Positions 2,394 to 59,985 of a stretch of DNA of 64,000 nucleotides are shown here, piece after piece. The translations under genes were made by a program, and so were the position numbers. Every line of letters begins with the position of its first letter. Position 1 is the stretch's first letter. Below the pieces are notes generated by a model, which was given only the letters and a program-made list of their open reading frames with translations, did no database searches and had not been told where the DNA came from. Source of the stretch: Pseudeuparius sepicola (Eukaryota; Arthropoda; Insecta; Coleoptera; Anthribidae); the NCBI GenBank assembly GCA_963920635.1, contig OY987298.1, forward strand, positions 2,480,001 through 2,544,000, given 5' to 3'.

Positions 2394-2868
2394 TATCAAC
2401 CCAGGGACTCTTTAAAATAAGGGGACCCAGCATGTCACAGTCTATCAGCCTTGAGGGGAAGTTTGTTTTCTGTTGACTCCAAGGAGACCACAAGGGGGCT
2501 GATACAAGGTTATGTTATGTCAGTGTCCAACTGCCATCAGGTTTTATAGTTTTATGTGACATGTCAGATGCCAGTGCCATAGATTCTAAAGGAGGCAAAA
2601 TATTTCCCATCATAATTCACAATTTTTAATTTTTTTAACTTCCAGATACTGAGATGTGACAATTAAAGGTAATGCGGCCGCCTGTAGTAGTCCCAATAAT
2701 TGCAACCAGATTTTTCCTGTATCACCTTTAGTAATTCTACAATTCCCATTACGTGGGCATTACGTAAAAGTAGGTAGTTCAAAACAAAAATCGTATTTCG
2801 AAAATTTTAAATTATTAAGCAGGTAGCTTCAGTCGGGTATTTTTTTAATGGTATATTACATAGCGAGA

Positions 2869-2964
2869 GTTGTAAACAGCTTATTACGTATGAGTGGAAA
2901 AGTTGCGCACTAGCCGCGCAGCGGCGAGTGCTGTAATTCCACGAGTATGTAATAAGCTTACAAC
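2869..2964. repeat. Imperfect inverted repeat (stem-loop)
   Basis: Left arm GTTGTAAACAGCTTATTACG pairs with a right arm ending GTAATAAGCTTACAAC; the loop is GC-rich (GCCGCGCAGCGGCG). It lies inside the 2402-4936 element. No target duplication is seen directly beside it. Confidence 0.75.
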
Positions 2965-3060
2965 TCGAGTTTTGTATTATAATTTTTCTTCGACGAAAGA
3001 TGCCGCGGTAACAAGGCACCCCTGATAATTGCGTTTTAAGAACAGAAACGTAATTTTTTT

Positions 3061-3102
3061 ATTACGTGTCAGTCATTACGTGTCAGTCATTACGTGTCAG
3101 TG
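3061..3102. repeat. 14-bp tandem repeat, 3 copies
   Basis: ATTACGTGTCAGTC is repeated three times head to tail, with the last base changed in the third copy. Confidence 0.9.
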
Positions 3103-3415
3103 TTCGTAAGAATGAACTTACTTATAACCTAAACCGTCACTTAATGGGTATGTTACTAGCATAGGAGTAGAAAAACAGTTTTTATCTACGCCTACAAGTT
3201 TATTTTAAGTTTGTGAGGTACCTTGGGAGAGAAATAAAATTACAAAAATTTTATAATGAACACCGAGAAAAACTACATCATTAGAACTACTAGACCTAAT
3301 CTTATTAGTTCATCCCGAAATCTACGAAAGTTCTTTGGGTAGATACATTCAACAAGGGAAGAAAGTTCAAGTATTCATATTACAGATTGAGGAACCTGGT
3401 AACAAGATGCAATAG

Positions 3416-3450
3416 CAAAGTTTACAGAATATTTTATTCTGTAAACTTTG
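3416..3450. mobile_element. 35-bp hairpin insertion with 7-bp direct repeats (family alpha, copy 1)
   Basis: CAAAGTTTACAG and its exact complement CTGTAAACTTTG enclose an 11-base centre; pairing extends a few bases into the centre. The hairpin is bounded exactly by GCAATAG at 3409-3415 and 3451-3457. The same 12-base arms and a related centre occur at 24679-24713 with a different 7-base flank. This pattern is what a mobile element with a 7-bp target duplication would leave. Confidence 0.75.
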
Positions 3451-3789
3451 GCAATAGCGACAAATTCTTAAATAAGCAAAATCGGCACCACTGACTTACC
3501 ATAATTATTATTTAAATTCGTGGAAATAATTGCTGGAAATCAATTTCAACTATAAAATAAATTTCTTTCATTTGACAGTTGCCATATTCTGCACTTGTAT
3601 CTTACACAACATTGTCAAGTCTAATTTTTAGAAATCATGGAAACCATTATTAATTTTTATTAACAATCAAAGTACCTGTTTTATTCATAGATTCTCCAAT
3701 AAAATGGCATACTTGGCATCACTGAGACCATTAGAATGAGGAAAGAATAGGCCTCACTTTGGAAAGTATAATGCTGGGTCCCCTTACTT

Positions 3790-4915
3790 CACGGGCGTAG
3801 CCAGGATTTAGTTTTGGGGGGGGTTTAGTTTAAGAAGTAAATAAAACAACAAAAATATACTTACATGAAATTTAATATCTATATATTCATCCGAAAAACT
3901 ACGACATATTTATAAAGTTCTTAACTTTAAATGAAATGGATAAATTAATTTCGTTCCTCTGCGCTAAATCTAAAACCATTAAAGAAGAAATCTTCGGCTT
4001 TTTCTTTTAAGTATATCCACTACTTCATCTGCATGAATTTCTGTTCCATAGTGAATGTTCATTAACCATTAAGTCTGTTTTCACTTGTAGTGTTTCGTAA
4101 ATAGTTTTTCAGTCTCCTTAGGCTCGAGAAAGACCTTTCTGGGGTAGCAGTGGATACAGGAATGGTAGCCAAGATTTGTAGTAATGTGTAAATACCTATT
4201 AGGATAAAGGTTTTTATCGCACATATCTAGGCATTCCAAACTAGATTTCGGGGTAGGCAGTCTTCTTATCAGCATGCAAGGTAGCTGAAGCTTTGATAGC
4301 TAAATCCAAATTTGTTTCTTTATTAGAAACCCCTTGACCTTGACTACACCACTTTTTCCAGTAGTCCATACCTTTAGGTTTATCACCCTTCCTTTTCTTC
4401 CCCTCCATTTTTCGACAGTAATAATGATTCACGTATCTATCCTTAACAAGGTCATCGAATAACAGTGCACTAAAATTACTCACTTACACGGTACACTTAA
4501 TTCTCTTCACTATTCGTTCACCACTTTTCACTTTTATTCGCTTCGAGTTCGCATGGAACAATACTGCCGTAAGCGCGGTCACGCGCCGCGGCGCCGCTTA
4601 TATAGCAGCCCAGTAGCCGTCCAGAAACTTCCACGAACTTTCACAAAGTTCCGCTCATTTCGACCGAGGGGCGTGGCGAATAATCGAGAAACAACGCAAA
4701 GTGTCCCTACAATACAAAATAGTTCGGCTGCAACTGCGTCTGCCTCTCGTCAAAAGATGGCGCTAGGCGCTACTATTACTACATATATTCAAACGTAATA
4801 ATAATTTAACTCTTCACTCCTCGTATTTTTTCGGTATAATATTAGGTAATATTTTGCTTATTTCGGGGGGGGGGGGGTTTGAACCCCCGAAACCCCCCCC
4901 TTGGCTACGCCCGTG
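3790..4915 (-). mobile_element. Nested hAT element with G-run ends
   Basis: The termini are CACGGGCGTAGCC on the left and GGCTACGCCCGTG on the right, followed inward by long G or C runs. The flanks are CCTTACTT (3782-3789) and CCTTACTG (4916-4923), an 8-bp duplication with one mismatch. It sits inside the right terminal repeat of the 2402-4936 element, so it is the younger insertion. The coding remnant is on the minus strand. A TATA-like word (CTTATATAGC) in a GC-rich patch near 4600 could be the old promoter region. Confidence 0.88.
4069..4483 (-). pseudogene. hAT transposase remnant (ZMYM1-like), C-terminal dimerisation motif
   Basis: Read on the minus strand, about 4172 down to 4073 encodes ATPERSFSSLRRLKNYLR followed by a NTTSENRLNG segment. 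This is the classical C-terminal hAT dimerisation signature (ERSFS..R..KtyLR) seen in ZMYM1-like insect elements. A frameshift just after it (near 4070) moves the continuing LMNIHYG-type segment to another frame. Upstream, 4241-4483 is an 80-codon open frame with a lysine-rich W-K-K-W-C region that may be its N-terminal part. The catalytic core between them is missing, so the element is internally deleted and cannot encode an active enzyme. Recognition is from family motifs, not a search. Confidence 0.8.
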
Positions 4916-5089
4916 CCTTACTGTAAAGAGTCCCTGTATCAACCACTAATCTTTGTAAGTACCTATACACAGTTTTTCAGTTTGAGTTACTCTATCATAA
5001 TACTATTTTTTATGTAGCTCTTGTGTTACAACTTTAAACGTCTTCTTTGTCTCCTACATAGTAGGATTACAAGCACATTATTTATTGCA

Positions 5090-6665: not shown

Positions 6666-6673
6666 GTCCAACA

Positions 6674-7092
6674 CATGATACAACAAAAGAGAGATATGAT
6701 ATTGCGCAGGTTGGACACCATATTGGCGCGTCACGCGGTTATAAACAATGATACAAGTTGTATCATCTGGTTATTAACAACCGAAACGTCAGAAACGTCT
6801 GAGTGTCATTGTAGTGTGTTCTCTGCATTTTCAGCCGATTTGCGGAAAAAAAAAATGAAATTGCTCTTTGTGAACGTAAATTCTAACCAAGCAGAAACTT
6901 TTATGACGAATGACTTTTTTTGCATCTTATTTCACTCTTTGGTCCATTTGTCCCTTTGTAAACTCAATCAGTGGACATACTGTAATACTTTGCATGTCAT
7001 AAGTGGGCAGGAACTTACCGCGTGACGTAATTGCACAGAAGGGAACGAAATTGAGGCGGCTAAATATCATATCTCTCTTTTGTTGTATCATG
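6674..7092. mobile_element. Non-autonomous element, TIR CATGATACAAC, 8-bp TSD
   Basis: CATGATACAACAAAAGAGAG at the left end is mirrored at 7064-7092. The perfect 8-bp duplication GTCCAACA occurs at 6666-6673 and 7093-7100. The element is 419 bp; the internal 116-codon open frame has no recognisable domain. The 8-bp duplication suggests a hAT-type mover in trans. Confidence 0.85.
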
Positions 7093-7101
7093 GTCCAACA
7101 C

Positions 7102-14328: not shown

Positions 14329-14619
14329 ATAAAATGGCTTTTTTCGATCTGTAGCGAGTAACACGCCCAATTTTAAACTTTTGGTCAATACAAATTTTAA
14401 TCTAAGTAATTACTCACATTTTGAGACAAAAATTATTTAAAAATATTTCTCACAATGGCAGTTATTAGCATTTGCGCAAAAAACCTAATAACGGCCATTG
14501 TGATAAATATTTTTAAATAATTTTGTCTCAAAATGTGAGTTAGACTTAGATTAAAATTTGTATTGACAAAAATTAAAAATTTTATGTGTTACTCGCTACA
14601 GATCGAAAAAAGCCATTTT
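14329..14619. repeat. Long near-perfect hairpin
   Basis: Arms of roughly 135 bp, from AAAATGGCTTTTTTCGATCTG inward to ATTTCTCACAATGGC, mirrored from GCCATTGTGATAAAT outward. The loop is about 20 bp. Confidence 0.9.
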
Positions 14620-24530: not shown

Positions 24531-26394
24531 CTATAAGACCCTACTATTATATCTAAAAATAATATTTACGTAATTAGCAAGTTTTAGACGTTCTTGGAAA
24601 TTTTGTCGGGTAAGCACGTATGACGTCACAAGTGTTTTACAAACGCAATTGGCAATGTGGCGATACCATGCACTGAAGCAAAGTTTACAGCTTATTTTAG
24701 TCTGTAAACTTTGACTGAAGTGTTCCGAGACATAACCTTATTTTGCGGTGAAAGTTGCAAGGAAATTTGAAATTTTAACATTCTAACTTCAGACCCCCAG
24801 ACTTAGGATGCCCCGTGAAATCACAGAAGTATTTTTTCGTAAATGTTCATTTTGTGCAATTTTTTTTGGCAAGGTTGGGTCTAGGTATGGAATTCGGGCT
24901 CAGTACTTCTAAGCACTGTGGCGCCTTCATAAAAGTTCTCCGTTTATTAATAACTCATAATAGCTACTTCACTAATACTACAACATACAAACCTTTGCAG
25001 TTTTATTCCAGGAATTTCGGTAGATGTGAACATGAACCTCGGATATGAAAGGCATCCAATTTCGGCAAATTATCGGATTGCCCTTTCACGTAATCTTTGT
25101 CCATGATTATCTACCTACACCACACAATTATAACAACACGATAACTACAAAAACAATATAATAATAAATAAGAACAACACTATAATAAATCGAACAGATA
25201 TCTACTAATGTTTTGATGAGCGGCATACGGAATGACAGCATGACGGGACGTCGGGTGCGGCGGCGTTGCCACATAAGCGAATATTTCCGCATTATTAAAG
25301 TCGAAGTCTAGATATGTATCGTATATATAATATGTTCCATCTCCATCGTTGATTAAATATTTCAGTTCCACATACATATACTTTAAACAAAGTGTCACGT
25401 GAAAGAGATAAAGGATATAGTTTCCAGCGTGTGCAGACATTTTAATAGAAAAGTACAATTTGCCTTTGTTCCACGAATTACTGCAAACGGGCACCGGCAA
25501 CATTGCAATGCCGTTTCTCCTAACAGGCACAGAGGTTGCCACGTTTGGCGTTCTAGGCAATAAAATGTCGAAACTGTAGATTTCAGCCTGAAGAAAATTG
25601 TGCAACTTCGTCTTTAATTATCATAAATAATAAATATAAGGGTTAAAAGCCGTTTTTCATTTATTACGTGTTATGCTGGTGCATCTACTGTAAACTGAGT
25701 ACCATTTTAGAGCAATTAAAAATATTCTCAAGTAATATTATTTAAATCCGACATGAAATAAAGATAAACACACCGCTCCGCGTGTTACCTACAATATGAG
25801 ACGTTGCCCGATTATCTCAAGCCGTATACTGGCAGAGACAAAACGATTAATTATCAAGGCTTTTGTTGCCCTGCTTGTCAATAGATGGCACTGATAAACG
25901 CTACGTCATTGTCGGAGTCCGCTGTATTTTTATCAAAAAGCAATCTTAAGTAGACGAGTAAACAAGCTAATTTATACCTGCTATCTAGGTATTTATGTCT
26001 AACCAAATGAACAAACAACGGACAATGAACATTAGCAAAAATAAATTGTTGCTGTGACGACCGGAGTTACGTCACTGTCACTATATAATTCCACTGGTGT
26101 AACCGGTCGCACGTCATTATGCCCCATCAGAATTTGAATATTCATAGGCGCTATATTCATGTTGGTGGATAATCGCTAAAGTTTCGGCAAGATAAGATTT
26201 AATAGGAGAATGGTTGAGTAATTTATACCACTAGAAGTCATAATAGAGGTTGCCGTTATTCATTTAGGCGCCTCTAATTCAAAACACAGGGTGTTCAAGG
26301 TTGAAGCATAATTTTATTAAAAACTCCTCCGTTCTTAAAAGATATTTATTAGTTGAAATTTGGTACGGACGGACACAGGCCTATATATAATATA
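24531..26394. other. Unassigned region with one unexplained open frame
   Basis: It contains the hairpin insertion at 24679-24713. On the minus strand 25180-25605 is open for 141 codons with normal-looking composition, but I recognise no domain and see no clear splice context. A decayed element end (CACAGGGTGTTCAAGGTTG) is at 26285. Confidence 0.35.
24679..24713. mobile_element. 35-bp hairpin insertion with 7-bp direct repeats (family alpha, copy 2)
   Basis: The same CAAAGTTTACAG / CTGTAAACTTTG arms as 3416-3450 with an 11-base centre that keeps TATTTTA. Flanked exactly by ACTGAAG at 24672-24678 and 24714-24720. Confidence 0.75.
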
Positions 26395-26780: not shown

Positions 26781-27516
26781 CACTTCGTCCGGAAAACGTT
26801 TAGTAAAAACTGCTGTCCCCTCGGCTGTCCCATTAAGATTATTGTCAGAAGCTTATGGTAAGACCCATGCTTGTGTAGGTACGTATGCGTAATATTTGGT
26901 TCTGTATTGTTTATGTCAATTTAAATATCAAAATATTTACTACAGGTTGAAAAAGTAGATATGACTAGTAACTCTGTCTTTGTTATTTATGTTTTTGTCT
27001 GCTCTATGTTTTGTTAGGCTTTATTAAAAATGAACGTAAAACATAAAAAAATTGCATTTTTATTCATGTTCCAACCAAAGTCTACAGATATACCTAATTA
27101 ATTATGTAGATTCAGGTAATAGCTACCTTGTATTTTAATTTAACTGTACCAACCAAAAACTAACACTTACTACATTTACTACTACACTTACCTACACAAA
27201 TAATCTTGTACCAAAGTCTACAAATAGGTATACCTACTAATATTTGTAGACTTTGATAAATAATGGAAAGTCAATATGAACCTGCCCCCGTATAACTAGC
27301 TTGACGGCGATTTCGTTTAGTCGCCCTCGTAAATGCGAAGCGTGCGAGGTGACGCTGATTTACGACCGGTCGCAAAAAATTGTCGGCTTTTCCGAGAGAT
27401 CAAAGAAGTGAGCGGACTTAAGTATTTCTAGACTTTGCTTATACACTATAGCCATATCTCCGCTACCCTTATAGAGCGCAAAATCAAAATCATCTCTATA
27501 CGAAATAAAGACAGCC
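26781..27516. other. Unassigned sequence with short hairpin
   Basis: A hairpin at 27212-27255 has arms CAAAGTCTACAAATA and complement. CAAAGTCTACA also occurs at about 27073. No flanking duplication seen, unlike the alpha hairpins. No gene. Confidence 0.45.
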
Positions 27517-28398: not shown

Positions 28399-28572
28399 GA
28401 CCCCCGGACGTCCAGCAAAGCGGCGGCCTCGGCCGCCCCCGATTCCCATTCCCACCGCCTCTTCTTCTCCTGCCAATTCCCAAGAACGGTAGACGCACAG
28501 GATTGCTCGATCTCGTAAGCGTAATGTTCGCCAGTCGGCAGATGGGTGTGACGTCAGCGCTAGACTAACGGT
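28399..28572. promoter_or_regulatory. GC-rich island with CRE-like site, inverted relative of 30331-30412
   Basis: ACGGTAGACGCACAGGATTG and TGACGTCA (28549-28556) are found in reverse complement at 30331-30412 and again at 31488-31564. Possibly the promoter-proximal part of the element that carried the THAP frame at 28850. Confidence 0.45.
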
Positions 28573-28849
28573 GTTATTTGTACATCAGGGGTGCGAGTTT
28601 TGACGCGGGTTTTGACTGTGTTTTCTTTATTTTATGTAACCTGTTTTTAGTTTTCAATCTATTATTGAATATTTAAGTATACTAAATTAGTACCATCTTG
28701 CATAGTATTAAAAACGTAAGAACTAAATATATTTTGTCAAATTATCTCTCTAATATCGAATGTTTTGTGCCATTATAGGTACTTATATTTTATCATTTTA
28801 AATACACTTTACCCTATACTTTATTTTTATTATTTATTTAGAATACATT

Positions 28850-29104
28850 ATGACAGGAACGAGGTGTGCTGTTTATGGTTGTAATACAACTTACGCTTTA
28901 AAAAAAGCAGGCGAAAATATTATGTTCCATACCTTCCCCAAGTCAAAAGATATGGTTTCACAAACGATTAGGAGAGCATGGGTGGCAAGATGTAAAAGAA
29001 TGGACAGTTTCAACCCTAACAACAGTCATATTTGTTCTCGTCATTTTACGGAAAATGACTATGAAAGAGATTTACAGAGTGAACTGCTAGGTAAAAGAGT
29101 TTAA
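28850..29104 (+). CDS. THAP zinc-finger domain protein, transposon-associated
   Basis: An 84-codon frame starting MTGTRCAVYGC. The C2CH pattern of THAP domains is visible: Cys6 and Cys11 near the N-terminus, then Cys62-x2-His65 in CSRHF, with the conserved Phe29-Pro30 and Trp44. The usual AVPS box just after the domain is missing; the frame stops soon after LLGKRV. THAP domains bind DNA and occur at the N-terminus of P-type and some other insect transposases. About 20 bp downstream lies a DDE_Tnp_4 remnant, so this is probably the DNA-binding end of a decayed element with the middle deleted. An intact frame could also mean recent decay or a small retained protein. Confidence 0.7.
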   Translation: MTGTRCAVYGCNTTYALKKAGENIMFHTFPKSKDMVSQTIRRAWVARCKRMDSFNPNNSHICSRHFTENDYERDLQSELLGKRV

Positions 29105-29126
29105 CCTTTCCATCTTCATCCAAAGC

Positions 29127-29285
29127 TTCTTTAACTACAGACTAAATCTGGCAAGAAGAGTAGTTGAAAATGCATTTGGCATTTTAGCCAAACGATTTAG
29201 AGTTTTTTGACTAAAATTAATTTGAATGTGGAAAAAGTGCAAACCGTAACATTGGCATGTTGCACATTACATAATTTTTGAGACA
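29127..29285 (+). pseudogene. PIF/Harbinger-type transposase fragment (DDE_Tnp_4 C-terminus)
   Basis: The translation begins NYRLNLARRVVENAFGILAK then RFRVF, the conserved end of the HARBI1-like nuclease domain (ARR.vENAFGiL..RwRvf). A single-base shift after RVF moves the continuation VEKVQTVTLACCTLHNFLRH to another frame. Upstream catalytic motifs are absent. Together with the THAP frame before it, it represents a THAP-plus-DDE element with a large internal deletion. Confidence 0.85.
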
Positions 29286-29619
29286 CGAATGTCCTACTTC
29301 CAACCTAGAAGAGCTTGATAAAGACTATATATTTCAATTTGGACTTTCTTACCAAACATGCTCACCAAGACATGCTTGCGTTGCTGAACAAGAGGAGTTT
29401 GTGATTATTTCGTGAATGAGGGAGCATAAATAAAACATATTGTAACATTTCACACACTTTTTATCTAAGTATATTGTCTTTAAAACTATGTAGGTACTCT
29501 CCTCTTTCTCGTCTAATGCCTCAAACAAAACTAGTATCAATATATAACCTTTCTTGTGTTCAAATTTTCAATGTTACTACTCCTGAAGTTCACGCAAAAC
29601 TTGACGGAAAATAGGACAT

Positions 29620-29775
29620 GCTCTAATCCGTGAAGTAACTTCATGAAGAAATTCATGAATTAATTCATGAAGAAATTGCCAGTGTAATACACGACTTTTT
29701 ATAATAATTTGCCCTTGAAGTGACTTCATGAATTAATTCATGAAGAAATTGTCAATGTAAAACAGGCATCACAGA
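29620..29775. repeat. Palindromic TTCATGAATTAATTCATGAA words
   Basis: Two diverged direct copies of a segment containing TTCATGAATTAATTCATGAA; 29724-29745 is a perfect 22-bp palindrome. It may be the terminus of the THAP/Harbinger element (the segment ends AATGTAAAACAGGCAT), but no mirrored partner is proven. Confidence 0.6.
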
Positions 29776-30018
29776 GTGTGTACCAGTACAGGTGCAATAA
29801 GACCAAATGTCAAGTCCTATAAGCGCCTTTTATCGAACCTTTTGTGAAACATAATTTTCATAGTGTTTATTAAGAGTATTATACTCGTAATAAATTGAAA
29901 CTAAAATTTGGCATACATTATTTTTAATATTAATTTATAAAATAATATCGCAAAAGATTAGTATCATACTTACCGTATTTCAAACGTTCAAAATACTTTG
30001 TATAATAATAATATTTTA
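29776..30018. other. Unassigned AT-rich sequence
   Basis: Nothing recognisable. Confidence 0.4.
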
Positions 30019-30930
30019 TATTTGCCTCAGCCAGAGGCCTCGGCAACTAAATTCCACATAAGTCATAAAAAGTTGAACTTCAGTGCCTTGGTACATAAAT
30101 AACTATTTTCGAAATTTTCTTCTATGCAATTATTCCATATATTGGCAATTTTATAAATTAATCCCTTAGTCTTGATACATTCTAAGTAAAAAATAAAAGT
30201 TCTCTGTACTCTTAATAGTGTATAAAAATCAAAGGATTGGCAAAAGTAGCTCAAAAACACAGAACATCGACAGAAAACCCACCCTTTCTATATTTTAAAC
30301 GGTAGCTCCCGGCGCGCTTAGCAGATAGCAGTCTAGCGGTGACGTCACGCCGGCGGAGAGATTTGCCCGATCGAGCAATCCTGTGCGTCTACCGTTCTTG
30401 GCCAATTCCCACACGCGGCCGCGCTCAAAAAACACCAACGGAGCGGGCCGGCGGTGGTAGGAAAATCCCAGCCGCGCGGCGAGGTCGGGGCGAGTTGCGA
30501 CCTACAGACAAGGTTGGAGAGACTTAGTAGGCGGTGGTCGGAGAGAGAAGGAACCGCGAGCGCCGAGGGCAGGGGAAAGAGACAGACGGCGGCTGACAGA
30601 TGCGGGACTGGCGGCGTTGCCGGATGAAGGTGGAGCGTTTAAAATGCGTCGGTCTGGAACTTGGGAACTCTGTGTGGTCATTCTTACGAGATTTAGAGGT
30701 GGGGAAATATTTAATTCATAAATAGTAGGCACTTGATATAGAATAGGTAATTTGTATACCTAATCATTTTAAGAAGGAACTTACTCTCAGAGAAATAACC
30801 AAGGATTGAAGGAGTAAGAACAAAAAGTAAACAGAGCCAACATCTTTTTGAGTGATGCCACGTACTCCATTGTTTACAGCATTTCATTTCAAAATAGAAG
30901 GGTTTAATAATAGGATTAAATGAAGGCACA
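30019..30930. repeat. Direct duplication, long copy
   Basis: Starts TTTGCCTCAGCCAGAGGCCT and ends GGATTAAATGAAGGCAC; matches 31175-31860 nearly base for base. Contains a CpG-rich island (30300-30610) with TGACGTCA at 30340-30347. The 228-bp part 30413-30640 is missing from the second copy. Confidence 0.93.
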
Positions 30931-31135
30931 ATAGATTTGTTGTGTAAGATGCACAATAAGCAGCAGTTTGGTTTTTCTGTCAGAAGGTGCCGTACATCAT
31001 TATGCTTGTGCTAGGTAGAGCGATCGGTAAAGTCAAGCAACGCCGCGCGTAGTCGGTTCGTGGACGGGTGATCCCTTATTATTATTTTCTTGCCTAATAA
31101 AACATTTTTTTCCGATTTCAAGAAAAATATAATAT

Positions 31136-31252
31136 GTACCTCGGCACTGAAGTTCTTTTTATGACTCATGTGGTTTATTTGCCTCGGCCAGAGGCCTCCA
31201 CAACTAAACTCCAAATGAGTCATAAAAAGTTGAACTTCAGTGCCTTGGTACA
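31136..31252. repeat. Short palindrome at the left edge of duplicate 2
   Basis: GTACCTCGGCACTGAAGTTC is mirrored as GAACTTCAGTGCCTTGGTAC, with CTTTTTATGACTCAT also mirrored. The loop contains CCTCGGCCAGAGGCC. Confidence 0.85.
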
Positions 31253-31860
31253 TAAATAACTATTTTCGAAATTTTCTTCTATGCAATTATTCCATATATT
31301 GGCAATTTTATAAATTAATCCCTTAGTCTTGATACATTCTAAGTAAAAAATAAAAGTTCTCTGTACTCTTAATAGTGTATAAAAATCAAAGGATTGGCAA
31401 AAGTAGCTCAAAAACACAGAACATCGACAGAAAACCCACCCTTTCTATATTTTGAACGGTAGCTCCCGGCGCGCTTAGCAGATAGCAGTCTAGCGGTGAC
31501 GTCACGCCGGCGGAGAGATTTGCCCGATCGAGCAATCGTGTGCGTCTACCGTTCTTGGCCAATTATATAAATTAAATAAATAAAATGCGTCGGTCTGGAA
31601 CTTGGGAACTCTGTGTGGTCATTCTTACGAGATTTAGAGGTGGGGAAATATTTAATTCATAAATAGTAGGCACTTGATATAGAATAGGTAATTTGTATAC
31701 CTAATCATTTTAAGAAGGAACTTACTCTTAGAGAAATAAGCAAGGATTGAAGGAGTAAGAACAAAAAGTAAACAGAGCCAACATCTTTTTGAGTGATGCC
31801 GCGTTTACAGCATTTCATTTCAAAATAGAAGGGTTTAATAATGGGATTAAATGAAGGCAC
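31175..31860. repeat. Direct duplication, short copy
   Basis: Second copy of 30019-30930; the GC-rich segment after CTACCGTTCTTGGCCAATT is replaced by a short AT stretch (TATAAATTAAATAAATAAA). TGACGTCA is at 31497-31504. The identical 65-codon minus-strand frames at both copies are not evidence of coding. Confidence 0.93.
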
Positions 31861-32181
31861 ACCTCCCATAACGCTAAATTAACACATGTAGTTATTAATT
31901 TCTTGTATGTAACAATTTTAAACTAAAACTAAATTGCGCTGTATTTATAGTAGCTAATTATGACTTTAATAAAATCGTCACAGATACCTCAAACCGCCCA
32001 ACATGGCAACGCCGACGTTGCTGCCGCGGGCGCCGGGTTAACTCGGCGGTTTTTGTTTTGTGTTTGCCCAGCAGTCAAGTTTTCCGATTGTTTACGTAGG
32101 ATGCATTTTTCCTGTTTTTTTTTCTGTTAATTTATAGACTATTTATTAGTATTTAGGATACAGTGACTGATTTTGTATACA
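31861..32181. promoter_or_regulatory. Possible promoter/5' region of the THAP exon
   Basis: A compact GC-rich patch (31990-32045, GCCGCGGGCGCCGGG) precedes the THAP-like start at 32182. Function inferred from position only. Confidence 0.3.
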
Positions 32182-32248
32182 ATGGGACGCAGAAAGTGTG
32201 TGGTATGTGGCTAAATTGATATTTCTCAGGATGTAACCTATCACAGGT
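32182..32248 (+). pseudogene. First exon of a THAP-domain gene, with a stop
   Basis: The ATG at 32182 opens MGRRKCVVCG, then a TAA, then IDISQDVTYHR running into CACAG|GTAAAC, a good splice donor. The C-x2-C start and the VTYHR before the donor match first exons of insect THAP genes. The in-frame stop shows it is broken, or that an allele or sequencing error is present. I cannot see exon 2. Confidence 0.55.
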
Positions 32249-32516
32249 AAACGTTGTACACACGGGCCAAATGTTTGTTTACTTCGGTACTTACTTGCAT
32301 AAGATGTTGGTTGACTACAAACTTGTGTATTTTGATGCTGTTGCTCCCTCTGTCCTTGGTTATTTCTCTGAGAACTTACTCCAAATTTTGAAAAAAAAAA
32401 AATTCTGACAACCAAGTAAAAATAAGAATCGGCTTTCTTTTATAAAATATGCCTCAAAATGCATGGTTTTTCTACGAATTTCAAAAGTTTTTCTTTAAAA
32501 CTAAAATAATGTAGGG

Positions 32517-34642: not shown

Positions 34643-34977
34643 CTCCATATCTCAGAAAAATAAAAAACGTAGAACTGGCTTTGTTTTGGCAAGTTTGTTC
34701 CCATAATAAAAAAATAATGTTTACAGTTCGGGTGACAGATCTGGTGCTAACGATTACAAAGCAGTGGCGTACTTCTTATTTTTTTAAAATAGTTATAAAA
34801 ATGGGAAAAAATATATTTGCCTTTATATCTCATTTTTTTTTATAAAAATTGAAGTTAACCCCCAGGTTCAACTAGTACGCATCAATTCTAAAATTCAAAC
34901 TTATCAATGTTATAGACAGTTACTATAGTCGGGGATTGTTTGGCGAATACAATATAAAAAAAAATAAAAACTTTCTA

Positions 34978-35278
34978 AAAACAAGCTTTTATTTAAGCCA
35001 TGAACTAAAACGGATAAAATAAGTTTAGGTTTTCGTTAAGATAATTCAGTACCACACTGTGGCAAATTTTTATAAAAGTAGGTACCAATTAAGTTTATCG
35101 AACAGTGATTGGTTGATAAGCAAGTACATTCCAAAGAATATATTTTCTTTACAGTTTGCGCGACAAGCTTTTTTGATTTAAAAAAGCTTGTCACAGTTTT
35201 CTTAACGAAAACCTAAACTTATTTTATTCGTTTTAGTAAATGGCTTATTTAAATAAAAGCTTGTTTTTAAAAAGGTTT
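34978..35278. repeat. Hairpin inside the 34651-36984 element
   Basis: Arms AACAAGCTTTTATTTAAGCC...GGTTTTCGTTAAG and complement, with an inner small hairpin (GACAAGCTTTTTTGATTT...) near 35160-35192. Confidence 0.85.
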
Positions 35279-35699
35279 TTTTATTATTTATTTTATTTTG
35301 TGCTTTTTTAATACCTATTTGATTCCCATCTCAGAAGGGTGGTAAAGAAATTTAGTACGCCATCTTGGGGCATGGGGCATCGGGCATCCGCCCTATTGGA
35401 TTTAGTATGACGTCAGTCACCTTATCGTTTTCTACTCTTCAAATCCTTTCCTTTTTCCATGTCGAGGATGTTTATTATGACGTCATTCACCTTATGGTTT
35501 TCTACCCGTCGAGCCCTTTCGTTTAGGTAATACCCATGTTGAGAATTATTTTCCCTCTGGTGGTAAAGGTATCCTTACCATGCCCCGAACTAGGTACGCC
35601 TATGTACTTACGCATGATATGTAACCTCCTTTGGCGACATGCTTGATTTGCAAACAATACACTTTTTTTTGCCCATAACGTATAACTTAATTGTCTATA

Positions 35700-36396
35700 C
35701 AGGGTGAGTCACATCTAAAGTCAGAGCCGAAAACACAAGGTAGAACTCGCTAAAATAAGCACATATGCTTAATAAACATTAGCCCAAAAAAGCTTGGTTC
35801 TCCATATACAGCGTGTTGAAAATTTTCCAAAAATAACATATTTTTTTAATTTCTTTCGATCCCATTTAGGAATTCCAACCAAATTTGGTACACGTTATAC
35901 ACTGGACGGTTGCCATTTTGTGGAATAATTTGACCCCGTTCCGATCACCAGCGGCGTAGGTACAAATAGTTACTGTAAATAATTGTAGAAAAAAAGTAGT
36001 ACGGCCCTGTGCAAAACCAAAAATTTTGGATTTTTCGGATAGCCCATTTAATTTGGAACAAAAAGTGCCTCTTGGTATTTTTTTTATTTCTGGTACAGTT
36101 TCTTCGTAATTTCGGATTTTTTAAACTAGTGTCAAGGTGATTATGCTGGCATTTTAAATAAAATTATTTGTATCATCTGAACAGGGCCAAATTATTGCAC
36201 AAAATGACAACCCATAATATGTATAAAATAATTCCTAAACGGGCTAGAAAAAAATTAAAAAATATTTGGACAAGTTTCAACACTCTGTATATGGAGAACC
36301 AAGCGTTTTTGAGCTAATGTTTATTAAGCATATGTGCTTATTTTAGCGAATTCTACCTTGTGTTTTCGGCTCTGCCTTTAGATGTGACTCACCCTG
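35700..36396. mobile_element. TA-flanked foldback with demonstrated empty site
   Basis: Ends CAGGGTGAGTCACATCTAAAG and complement; TA at 35698-35699 and 36397-36398. In copy 2 of the host element the reverse complement near 46560 reads ATTGTCTATATAAGC with no insertion, exactly the predicted pre-insertion sequence with one TA. Confidence 0.95.
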
Positions 36397-36992
36397 TATA
36401 AGCTTTTTAAACCGACGAATACTTAAGAAACGCTTAAAAACAGCGAAAAATTGCTTCTAAAAGACAAAAGACACAGCACCAGTTATGTCAAACAGAAGGT
36501 GAGGCACACTCTTGACCGATTTGCGCGTTCGTCAGATTGTGCGATTGGTATTGGTAATTGTAGGTATATTATTGTTTCGTCAGTTGTATCACAGATTAAA
36601 GTACTACACGTAGTATAGAAATACTGCCTAATAAGTGTCTAGATAATTATAAATACTAGATTCACCTATTAGTCAGGCAGACCTTATCTCATCAATACAT
36701 AAATATCATCATATTATCTACCATTATTTACTTCAAAGCAAACGTATTTGCAACTGATTGGGTATGTCCCTAGTCCCTACATACAACGGAAACCACTGTT
36801 GCAAAACTATTAATTTGACCTTGAAGATTACCTTCATTTACCAGAGAAATAAGTTTTTCATTATGAATTATTGGCAACGCTGTTAAACTTTAACTAGTAA
36901 ATAAATAATAGAGTATAAAAAGTGTTACCCCTTACAAACATTTCAATCTACAGATGCCATTTCTATGTTTTTTATTTTTCTGAGCTCCATAT

Positions 36993-37660: not shown

Positions 37661-37675
37661 TTTTATATGCTTTTG

Positions 37676-37717
37676 CCACAGAAAATATACGCGTAGCGTA
37701 GCGTATATTTTCTGTGG
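37676..37717. mobile_element. 42-bp hairpin insertion flanked by CTTTTG (gamma)
   Basis: CCACAGAAAATATACGC, 8-base loop, exact complement. Adjacent direct repeats CTTTTG at 37670-37675 and 37718-37723 (seven bases, CTTTTGC, if the first hairpin base is shared). Same architecture as the alpha and beta hairpins but a different sequence and only one copy seen. Confidence 0.55.
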
Positions 37718-37792
37718 CTTTTGCACCACTAGAATGAGCTCTCCGAGCATCAGTGAGTGTACCTACCTAATAATTTATTAAACTGGTTTTCC

Positions 37793-45947: not shown

Positions 45948-45974
45948 TATATACCACAGAATCTGTGACTATAC

Positions 45975-47725
45975 CTCAGAAAAATAAAAAACATAGAAAA
46001 TGGCATCTGTAGAGTGAAATGTTTGTAAGGGGTAGCACTTTTTATACTCTAATATTTATTTACTAGTTAAAGTTTAACAGCGTTGCCAATAATTCATAAT
46101 GAAAAACTTATTTCTCTGGTAAATTAAAATAATCTCCAAGATCAAATTGCAAATAATAGTTTTTCAACAGTGGTTTCCGTTGTATGTAGGGACTAGGGAC
46201 ATACCCAGTCAGTTGCAAATACGTTTGCTGTGAAGTAAGTAATGATAGATAATACCTATATGACATTTATGTATTGATGAGATAAGGTCTGCCTGACTAA
46301 TAGGTGAATCTAGTATTTATAATTGTCTAGACACTTATTAGGCAGCATTTCTATACTACGTGTAGTACTTTAATCTGTGATACAACTAAGGAAACAATAA
46401 TATACCTAAAATTACCAATACCAATCGCACAATCTGACAAACGCGCAAATCGGTCAAGAGTGTGCCTCACCTTGTGTTTGACATAACTGGTGCTGTGTCT
46501 TTTAGAAGCAATTTTTCGTTGTTTTTAAGTGTTTCTTAAGTATTCGTCGGTTTAAAATGCTTATATAGACAATTAAGTTATACGTTATGGGCAAAAAAAG
46601 TGTATTGTTTACAAATCAAGCAACTCGCCCGTAAGGAGGAGGTTACATATCATGCGTAAGTACATAGGCGTACCTAGTTGGGGGCACGGTAAAAGATACC
46701 TTTACCACCAGAGGGATAATAATTCTCAACATGGGTATAAAACGAAAGGGCTCGACGGGTAGAAAACAATAAGGTGAATGACGTCATAATAAATCTATTA
46801 TGGCGGCCTCCCCAAGACGGCGGATTGCCTACATGGGTATCAAAGGAAAGGATTTGAAAAGTAGAAAACGATAAGGTGACTGACGTGACGTCATACTAAA
46901 TCCAATAGGGCGGATACTCGATGCCCCAAGATGGCGGACTAAATTTCTTTACCACCCTTCTGAGATGGAAATCAAATAGGTACTAAAAAAGCACAAAATA
47001 AAATAAATAATAAAAAACCTTTTTAAAAACAAGCTTTTATTTAAGTAAGCCATTTACTAAAGCGGATAAAATAAGTTTAGGTTTTCGTCAAGATAATTCA
47101 ATGCCAAACTGCGACAAGCTTTTTCAAATCAAAAAGCTTGTCGCTCAAACTGTACCTACAGAAAATATATTCTTTGGCATGTACTTGCTTATCAACCAAC
47201 CACTGTCCGATAAAATTAATTGGTACCTATACTTTTATGAACATTTCGCCCGACGAGCTTTTTGATTTAAAAAAGCTTGCCGCAGTGTAGCATTGAATTA
47301 TCTTAACGAAAGCCTAAACTCGTTGACTGAAGGTTTAAATCTTCACCCAACGCTAAACTTATTTTATCCGTTTTAGTTCATGGCTTAAATAAAAGCTTGT
47401 TTTTATTATTTTTTTATTTTTTGTATTGTGTTCGCCGAACAATCCCCAACTAGTAACTGTCAATAACATTAATAAGTTTGAATTTTAGAATTGACGCGTA
47501 CTAGTTGTACCTGGGGTTATACTTCAATTTTTATAAAAAAATTGAGATATAAAGGCAAATATATTTTTTCCTATTTTTATAACTATTTTAAAAAAATAAG
47601 AGGTACGCCACTGCGTTGTAATCGTTAGCACCAGATCTGTCACCCGAACTGTAAACATTATTTTTTTTATTATGGGAACAAACTTGCCAATACAAAGCCA
47701 GTTCTACATTTTTTATTTTTCTGAG
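45975..47725. mobile_element. 8-bp-TSD element, TIR CTCAGAAAAATAAAAAACA, copy 2 (inverted)
   Basis: Perfect duplication GACTATAC at 45967-45974 and 47726-47733. Reverse complement of copy 1 at 34651-36984 along its length, lacking the foldback there but carrying the small hairpin insertion 47321-47352. Confidence 0.92.
47321..47352. mobile_element. 32-bp hairpin insertion with 7-bp TSD and empty sites (family beta, copy 1)
   Basis: CGTTGACTGAAG, 8 bases, CTTCACCCAACG (two mismatches in the stem). Flanked by CTAAACT at 47314-47320 and 47353-47359. The same context has a single CTAAACT and no insertion at 35213-35219, 14249-14255, and (as AGTTTAG) at 35022-35028 and 47074-47080. Confidence 0.88.
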
Positions 47726-47733
47726 GACTATAC

Positions 47734-51119: not shown

Positions 51120-51147
51120 ACTACAGATCATTGGTTGTAACCATAAG

Positions 51148-51179
51148 CGTTGACTGAAATATTCGGATTTCAGTCAACG
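51148..51179. mobile_element. 32-bp hairpin insertion with 7-bp direct repeats (family beta, copy 2)
   Basis: CGTTGACTGAAAT, 6 bases, ATTTCAGTCAACG, a perfect 13-bp stem. Flanked exactly by CCATAAG at 51141-51147 and 51180-51186. Same length and same CGTTGACTGAA end as 47321-47352. Confidence 0.8.
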
Positions 51180-51186
51180 CCATAAG

Positions 51187-53503: not shown

Positions 53504-53634
53504 CTGCGACGAGCGAAACGGTCAGAAGTAACAACAAACTTGTAAAAGCCCTGTTTAGAGTCGCAATTTTTATTGCCGGCAATGAAAATTGCTGACATTT
53601 TTGTTGTGCGCACGCGCATTAACTCCGTTTTGAG

Positions 53635-59343: not shown

Positions 59344-59985
59344 TTGCCGCAATCTTTGTTGTATGCAACTTTTATTGCAAAAACGAAATTGATTGATTCA
59401 GCCAGCAATCTATGAGTGCAACTTGTCTTGCAAGGAAGCAGAAGATTAGAATCTTTGGTAAAATTAATATAACCCGAAACACTACTATACAGTCTACACA
59501 ACTTTGCGACAAACATTGCGTGCAACAAAAATGTCAGCAATTTTTATTGCCGGCAATAAAAATTGCCACAATCTTTGTTGTATGCAACTTTCAGTGCCAA
59601 AACGGAATTGTTTTCCAGCCAGCAATCTGTGAGTGCAACTTGTCTTGCCAATATACCTAATTTTAGAAGACATTTATTCTGACAGCAGAGCAGGGTGTGT
59701 GCATTTAAAACAACAGTGGAAAAAAAGTTTATTAATCAAATCAAAACACACACATGCTGGCGAAGATAGGTTCATATAAAGTTCACCACCATTTGCCAAA
59801 ACCACGCTTGGTAATTGATTTATACCCAAATAAATCCCTAGAATTGTATTGCAACTGCAATAAAAATGGCGCCTGCCGCAAGAAAAATTGCAAACAGCTG
59901 ATCAAGAATGACATTGTGCGCATGCGCGCAATAAATATTGCGGCAATTTTCATTGCCGGCAATAAAAATTGCCATCTGTAAAGTG

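Follow-up and report, generated by a model that had tools for sequence, protein, structure and literature searches.

Short hairpins between 7-bp duplications in a beetle genome as probable excision footprints of P-superfamily-type transposons

Introduction

How does a 32-bp hairpin come to lie between two copies of the same seven bases inside a transposon? The question is raised by a 64,000-nucleotide stretch of contig OY987298.1 (positions 2,480,001 to 2,544,000) of the anthribid beetle Pseudeuparius sepicola, the whole of which we call the window. A first-pass annotation offered two readings: either an ultra-small class of element is mobilised in trans, or DNA repair left a product resembling a transposition event. 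Our analysis indicates that the hairpin is very likely a footprint, end-joined after the excision of a cut-and-paste transposon of P-superfamily type.

Results

The structure at the locus (A1 in Table 1) is as the first-pass annotation described it, an imperfect hairpin between two copies of CTAAACT. The four single-copy sites that it named are all present in the window, and four stretches align uninterrupted across the junction; the insertion and its 7-bp duplication are real. The host transposon belongs to a family with three copies in the window and the TIR CTCAGARAAATAA. When the 769-Mb assembly (16 contigs) was searched with the host stretch, the best 40 of 1262 candidates were scored, and the best places continue through the hairpin. 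The identical hairpin, mismatches included, is present at 8/8 host-repeat loci fetched, the window's own among them, in a set (best 40 of 1262; 8 fetched) that is biased towards hairpin-bearing copies because the query contained the hairpin. The annotation had also raised the case of a hairpin fixed throughout the host repeat; this holds for the host subfamily as sampled by these 8 loci, but the paralogue at 34651-36984 is empty at the equivalent place. The simplest reading is that the A1 hairpin was gained once and then multiplied with its host transposon.

Table 1. Hairpins and transposons discussed in the text; positions are those of the window.
Feature	Position	Strand	Description
Family A copy 1 (A1)	47314..47359	.	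TSD CTAAACT (47314-47320), imperfect 32-bp hairpin (47321-47352), TSD CTAAACT (47353-47359)
Family A copy 2 (A2)	51141..51186	.	TSD CCATAAG, 32-bp hairpin (51148-51179), TSD CCATAAG
Family B copy 1 (B1)	3409..3457	.	TSD GCAATAG, 35-bp hairpin (3416-3450), TSD GCAATAG
Family B copy 2 (B2)	24672..24720	.	TSD ACTGAAG, 35-bp hairpin (24679-24713), TSD ACTGAAG
CACAG-ended hairpin	37669..37724	.	40-bp hairpin (37677-37716), 8-bp direct repeats GCTTTTGC
A1 host transposon	45967..47733	+	1751 bp (45975-47725), TIR CTCAGAAAAATAAAAAACAT, 8-bp TSD GACTATAC
Paralogous host transposon	34643..36992	-	2334 bp (34651-36984), without hairpin, 8-bp TSD CTCCATAT
Third copy of host family	30786..32372		8-bp TSD AACTTACT
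P-like element	6666..7100	.	419 bp (6674-7092), 30-bp perfect TIR CATGATACAACAAAAGAGAGATATGATATT (CATGATACAACAAAAGAG...), 8-bp TSD GTCCAACA
Convincing hairpin, sampled stretch			38 bp, CACAG end, TSD GCAATAG
Convincing hairpin, sampled stretch			40 bp, CACAG end, TSD CCAAAAC
Convincing hairpin, sampled stretch			32 bp, CAAAG end, TSD TAAGTAC

We scanned the window for hairpins in which 10 or more of 12 arm positions pair and which are directly bounded by an exact 7-bp repeat. This gave five matches, one of them of low complexity, and none in 20 first-order Markov resamples. With the low-complexity filter on, four window hairpins in two families stood against three in total over 200 Markov resamples. 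The annotation had overlooked a second family A copy, CCATAAG-CGTTGACTGAAATATTCGGATTTCAGTCAACG-CCATAAG, and likewise the two family B hairpins with their 7-bp TSDs. The abutting direct repeats are of TSD length, exactly 7 bp in A1, A2, B1 and B2 and exactly 8 bp at the 37677 hairpin. If flanks are ignored, the window holds 27 short hairpins, five of which have an abutting 7- or 8-bp repeat (A2, B1, B2, 37677 and one at 14450 with the self-palindromic repeat AAATATTT); A1 is absent from this list, presumably owing to its arm mismatches.

Twenty further 10-kb stretches, placed at chosen round-number positions rather than drawn at random, contained five matches with exact 7-bp repeats, three of which we judged convincing (Table 1). 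Scans of viral contigs gave 0 matches to the family A and B hairpins. The window also has hairpins without TSD, namely a 30-bp form close to GCAATTTTTATTGCCGGCAATAAAAATTGC that occurs three times (53563-53592, 59537-59566 and 59942-59973) and a B-like hairpin, CAAAGTCTACAAATA...TATTTGTAGACTTTG, at 27209-27258.

The family A hairpins have the ends CGTTGACTGAA...TTCAGTCAACG. A1 and A2 are equal in length (32 bp), as are B1 and B2 (35 bp), which agree at 32 of 35 bases with the centre included; a discrete element would likewise show equal lengths and near-equal centres within A and B. We dropped the 32-bp length alone as proof of a 17 + 15 joint, because any 32-mer divides in this way. A search of the window for longer elements that combine A or B ends with a TSD of 7 or 8 bp found none, no parent with the exact family A end CGTTGACTGAA was seen in the window or the sampled stretches, and no family B parent was found. 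Right ends CGTTGACTGACGTATTAATAAAGACT do occur in the sampled stretches, and a related 109-bp element (L010:6055-6163) with the end CGTTGACTGAC has an exact 7-bp TSD, GTCCTAC. Its first 10 bases equal those of family A at the right end only, the left end differing at 2 of 10. Since the window A ends diverge from CGTTGACTGACGTATTAATAAAGACT-type ends beyond ten bases, we regard this element as a near relative and not as a proven parent. A hairpin of 32 bp at L016:9025-9056 shares this end type but has no TSD.

CACAG-ended hairpins could be compared at many more loci. Exact copies of the arm CACAGACCTATATAGCTT number 2264 genome-wide (1164 forward, 1100 reverse), and the backwards control has 0. 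We read 60 loci, all on contig C1, comprising every listed match from its start to 18.92 Mb and one at 23.7 Mb; the exact 18-bp left arm was demanded, which sets a retention floor of 18 on one side and no ceiling. Two-armed hairpins with a 7-bp TSD were found at 35 of the 60 (32 exact, 3 with one mismatch), and the 32 exact TSDs comprise 31 different 7-mers. By our own grouping, the other loci are 5 full-length element ends, 3 internal end copies and 17 unpaired loci (17/60), at which we found no TSD pair and no parent. The pairing rule undercounts, with exact 7-bp repeats also present at L040 and L046, outside the 35, by another end pairing.

The 35 hairpins range from 29 to 98 bp and their centres are variable; the fixed length and colinear interior of an ultra-small MITE were not found in this sampled family. 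Retention is at most 24 nt of the parent's 34-bp TIR on either side in 35/35, and the longer side retains exactly 23 nt in 20/35. By our split of the table, the junctions fall into 17 with overlap, 8 blunt and 10 with an insert. Some inserts are repeated TIR pieces, and one insert case, L075, may reflect arm decay rather than insertion. Not every one of the 35 is an independent jump, since L075 is itself contained in a full-length element. Five of the 35 paired loci share one 39-bp hairpin sequence. Among the 60 loci, which are exact 18-bp arm copies, footprints outnumber elements by roughly 7:1 on our count (35 against about 5), and extrapolation from this sample would give about a thousand scars for this arm genome-wide.

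The TSDs of the CACAG hairpins have a near-palindromic preference, CTANTAG after symmetrising. An ending in WA[GC] is found in 23 of the 32 exact TSDs, compared with 12.1% in a background of 7-mers from the 20 sampled stretches, and in 4/4 of the window A and B TSDs; the preference was spotted in the window and the first CACAG loci and counted afterwards. It does not extend to the 8-bp repeat that flanks the hairpin at 37677.

Two full-length CACAG parents were identified. The element at C1:14728873-14733449 is 4577 bp long; its TSD is GTAGGGG, and 33 positions of its 34-bp TIR match. The one at C1:9611929-9621646 is 9718 bp long, with TSD ATATCAG; both have the ends and the 7-bp TSD length of the CACAG hairpins. 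A third CACAG element, spanning L046 to L090, is flanked by GCAACAG on either side, and its right end is decayed. Both full-length elements contain a footprint near one end; ATATAAA borders this footprint in the 9718-bp element and also at L075, inside the 4577-bp copy. The 9718-bp element itself appears to be inserted in another copy of the CGTTGACTGACGTATTAATAAAGACT-ended type. A tblastn search of these two full-length CACAGACCTATATAG elements (4577 and 9718 bp) gave no match to five P-type transposases, and the window likewise gave none. The interior of L043 was considered as a parent and rejected, a different repeat beginning at its base 24.

P-type transposases are abundant in the genome. 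For PF21787, the RNase H domain of these enzymes, 150 of 1302 candidate places were scored, each of them passing the threshold; numerous open frames measured 700-866 aa, and no such place was found in the 14 control genomes. An intact 821-aa ORF lies in a 4597-bp element with CACAGAC ends, TIR CACAGACTAAACAGACTTGCCG and direct repeats GTAAGAAC of 8 bp, not 7. This ORF has five P-type Pfam domains and a match to THAP9_C; against 6p5a, a P transposase of solved structure, it scores an E value of 2.6e-22. None of the P-type transposases found is linked to CGTTGACTGAA or CAAAGTTTACAG, of families A and B. We take the end consensus of the P superfamily to be CANRG, which CACAG and CAAAG fit and CGTTG does not, and give this no weight.

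Several observations lie beside these results. Some PF21787 copies are less than about 30 kb from contig ends (C1:12844, C2:26342, C9:23581, C11:20047, C7:53697111 and C9:33970727) and are perhaps subtelomeric. The TIR of the 419-bp element at 6674-7092 closely resembles the fly P end, and a 26-bp hairpin matching this element lies between GTCGAAAAC copies in L093, near base 796. The window also contains a 1920-bp element (28481-30400) with a 30-bp perfect TIR, CAAGAACGGTAGACGCACAGG..., and 9-bp direct repeats GCCAATTCC, and a 2535-bp element (2402-4936), presumably hAT-like, with TIR CAGGGACTCTTTA and 8-bp TSD TATCAACC.

Discussion

For A1, the excision-footprint model would run as follows. 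A transposon with ends CGTTGACTGA... would have inserted at the CTAAACT site within the host transposon, creating the 7-bp duplication. Its transposase would then have excised it by widely staggered cuts lying deep within the TIRs, leaving a stretch of TIR on each flank, and end joining would have fused these remnants using microhomology or short inserts. Because the joined TIR remnants are inverted copies of each other, a hairpin of about 30-40 bp would result, bounded by the TSDs. In a last step, particular to A1, the host transposon would have multiplied and taken the scar along. That a P-type transposase cut family A, where it cut and by which pathway the break was repaired are points that we infer.

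The "repair product" reading of the first-pass annotation comes close to this model, with a real insertion followed by excision and end joining. Its other reading would make the 32-40 bp hairpins themselves the mobile unit, with a P-type transposase in trans recognising their outermost 10-12 bp. The lengths that are equal within the window families (32/32, 35/35), the agreement of B1 and B2 at 32 of 35 positions, centre included, and the single 39-bp sequence at 5 of 35 paired CACAG loci would all fit such an element. However, microhomology joining also predicts recurrent identical junctions, as in flies, where 14 isolates share one junction. We consider the ultra-small element very unlikely, because CACAG lengths and centres differ widely, arms are trimmed on one side with TIR pieces repeated, and longer parents share identical ends and TSD length. 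A 32-bp unit would also be without transposase binding sites, since those of the Drosophila P transposase, as described in the accessible text of PMC7776569, lie internal to the TIR. These arguments concern the CACAG family; to families A and B, each seen in two copies (independent ones for A), the ultra-small reading may still apply.

TIR pieces on both sides and the existence of parents would also be expected if larger copies had lost their middle without transposase excision, through abortive gap repair or slippage between inverted ends. Such ends should scatter, often far inside the element, whereas retention stops at 23-24 nt of the 34-bp TIR in 35/35, and the product classes agree with measured transposase excision junctions; we hold internal deletion to be highly improbable. 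Some CACAG junctions do resemble snap-back copies of one end, as they might if the hairpins were chance palindromes or independent snap-back repairs at 7-nt staggered breaks, with no transposon involved. With the same ends at unrelated window sites, one arm present 2264 times in the genome and Markov resamples that seldom yield such structures, the probability of this account is close to nil.

A further variant starts from the footprint itself. If some 32-40 bp footprints that keep both transposon tips were recaptured by a P-type transposase and reinserted as extremely small cut-and-paste units, scars would become a self-spreading repeat class. We keep this idea alive because the B1 and B2 centres are near-identical and 39-40 bp hairpins recur, and we give it only a slim chance.

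If the excision-footprint model is right, the hairpins form a fossil trail of P-type jumps, in which every scar marks a site that a transposon once occupied and preserves the way the break was repaired, and many natural repair junctions are open to study. The ratio of about 7:1 between footprints and elements would suggest that ends were frequently joined to each other over refilling from the homologue. For TSD-flanked hairpins in general, parents should be looked for before such sequences are catalogued as miniature transposons.

Comparison with known systems

Very small mobile hairpins exist in bacteria and cyanobacteria. The hairpins described here are like them in size and form, but here the junctions vary, the TSDs are of transposase type and longer parents exist. 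That transposons leave excision footprints is already known; what is added here is the 23-nt retention and a natural archive of junctions, and the unusual aspect is the number of scars. Literature searches on tiny TSD hairpins, P-superfamily palindromic footprints and genome-wide footprints gave no report of such an accumulation, which is a weak negative given that most subscription journals lie outside their coverage.

Among the systems compared, zebrafish Pdre2 / THAP9 (PMC10983969, in its accessible text) has a P-type transposase and short TIRs, and the 821-aa ORF here matches THAP9_C, but its TSD is 8 bp and its 13-bp TIR is of another sequence. In Galileo, another member of the P superfamily, most TSDs are 7 bp and a few 8 bp, with the consensus GTANTAC (PMC4168063, PMC2775673). 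The CACAG family has 7-bp TSDs too, and its target resembles that of Galileo in being near-palindromic, although the sequence is about CTANTAG here; the ends of Galileo differ, and the available portions of those papers do not describe an accumulation of footprints. A two-genome footprint study in rice (PMC4423477) deals with whole-genome excision scars repaired through microhomology and filler. That study covers other superfamilies and compares species, and long joined TIR remnants are not described in its accessible part.

The closest parallels come from P elements in flies. P transposase is unusual in making a 17-nt staggered cut, according to the accessible text of PMC7776569. By our count, 66 isolates appear in one junction table for P excision in spn-A flies (Chan et al., 2010, PMC2895639). 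Of these, 23 consist of TSD, joined ends and TSD, with joined ends of 30 bp (n = 14), 32 bp (n = 5) and 35 bp (n = 4), while 20 of the 66 arose via long microhomology and have far shorter end remnants than our hairpins. As presented in that part of the paper, the TSDs are 8 bp in flies compared with 7 bp here, and the longer side most often retains 23 nt in CACAG hairpins, compared with 17-nt tails in flies. The fly events were also selected in repair mutants, whereas ours are natural genomic copies. In both cases, to the extent of the fly data given there, a TSD is followed by about 14-17 bp of each TIR head to head and a second TSD, with 1-3 nt of microhomology and small or templated insertions. 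Our hairpins share the anatomy of the 30-, 32- and 35-bp fly isolates.
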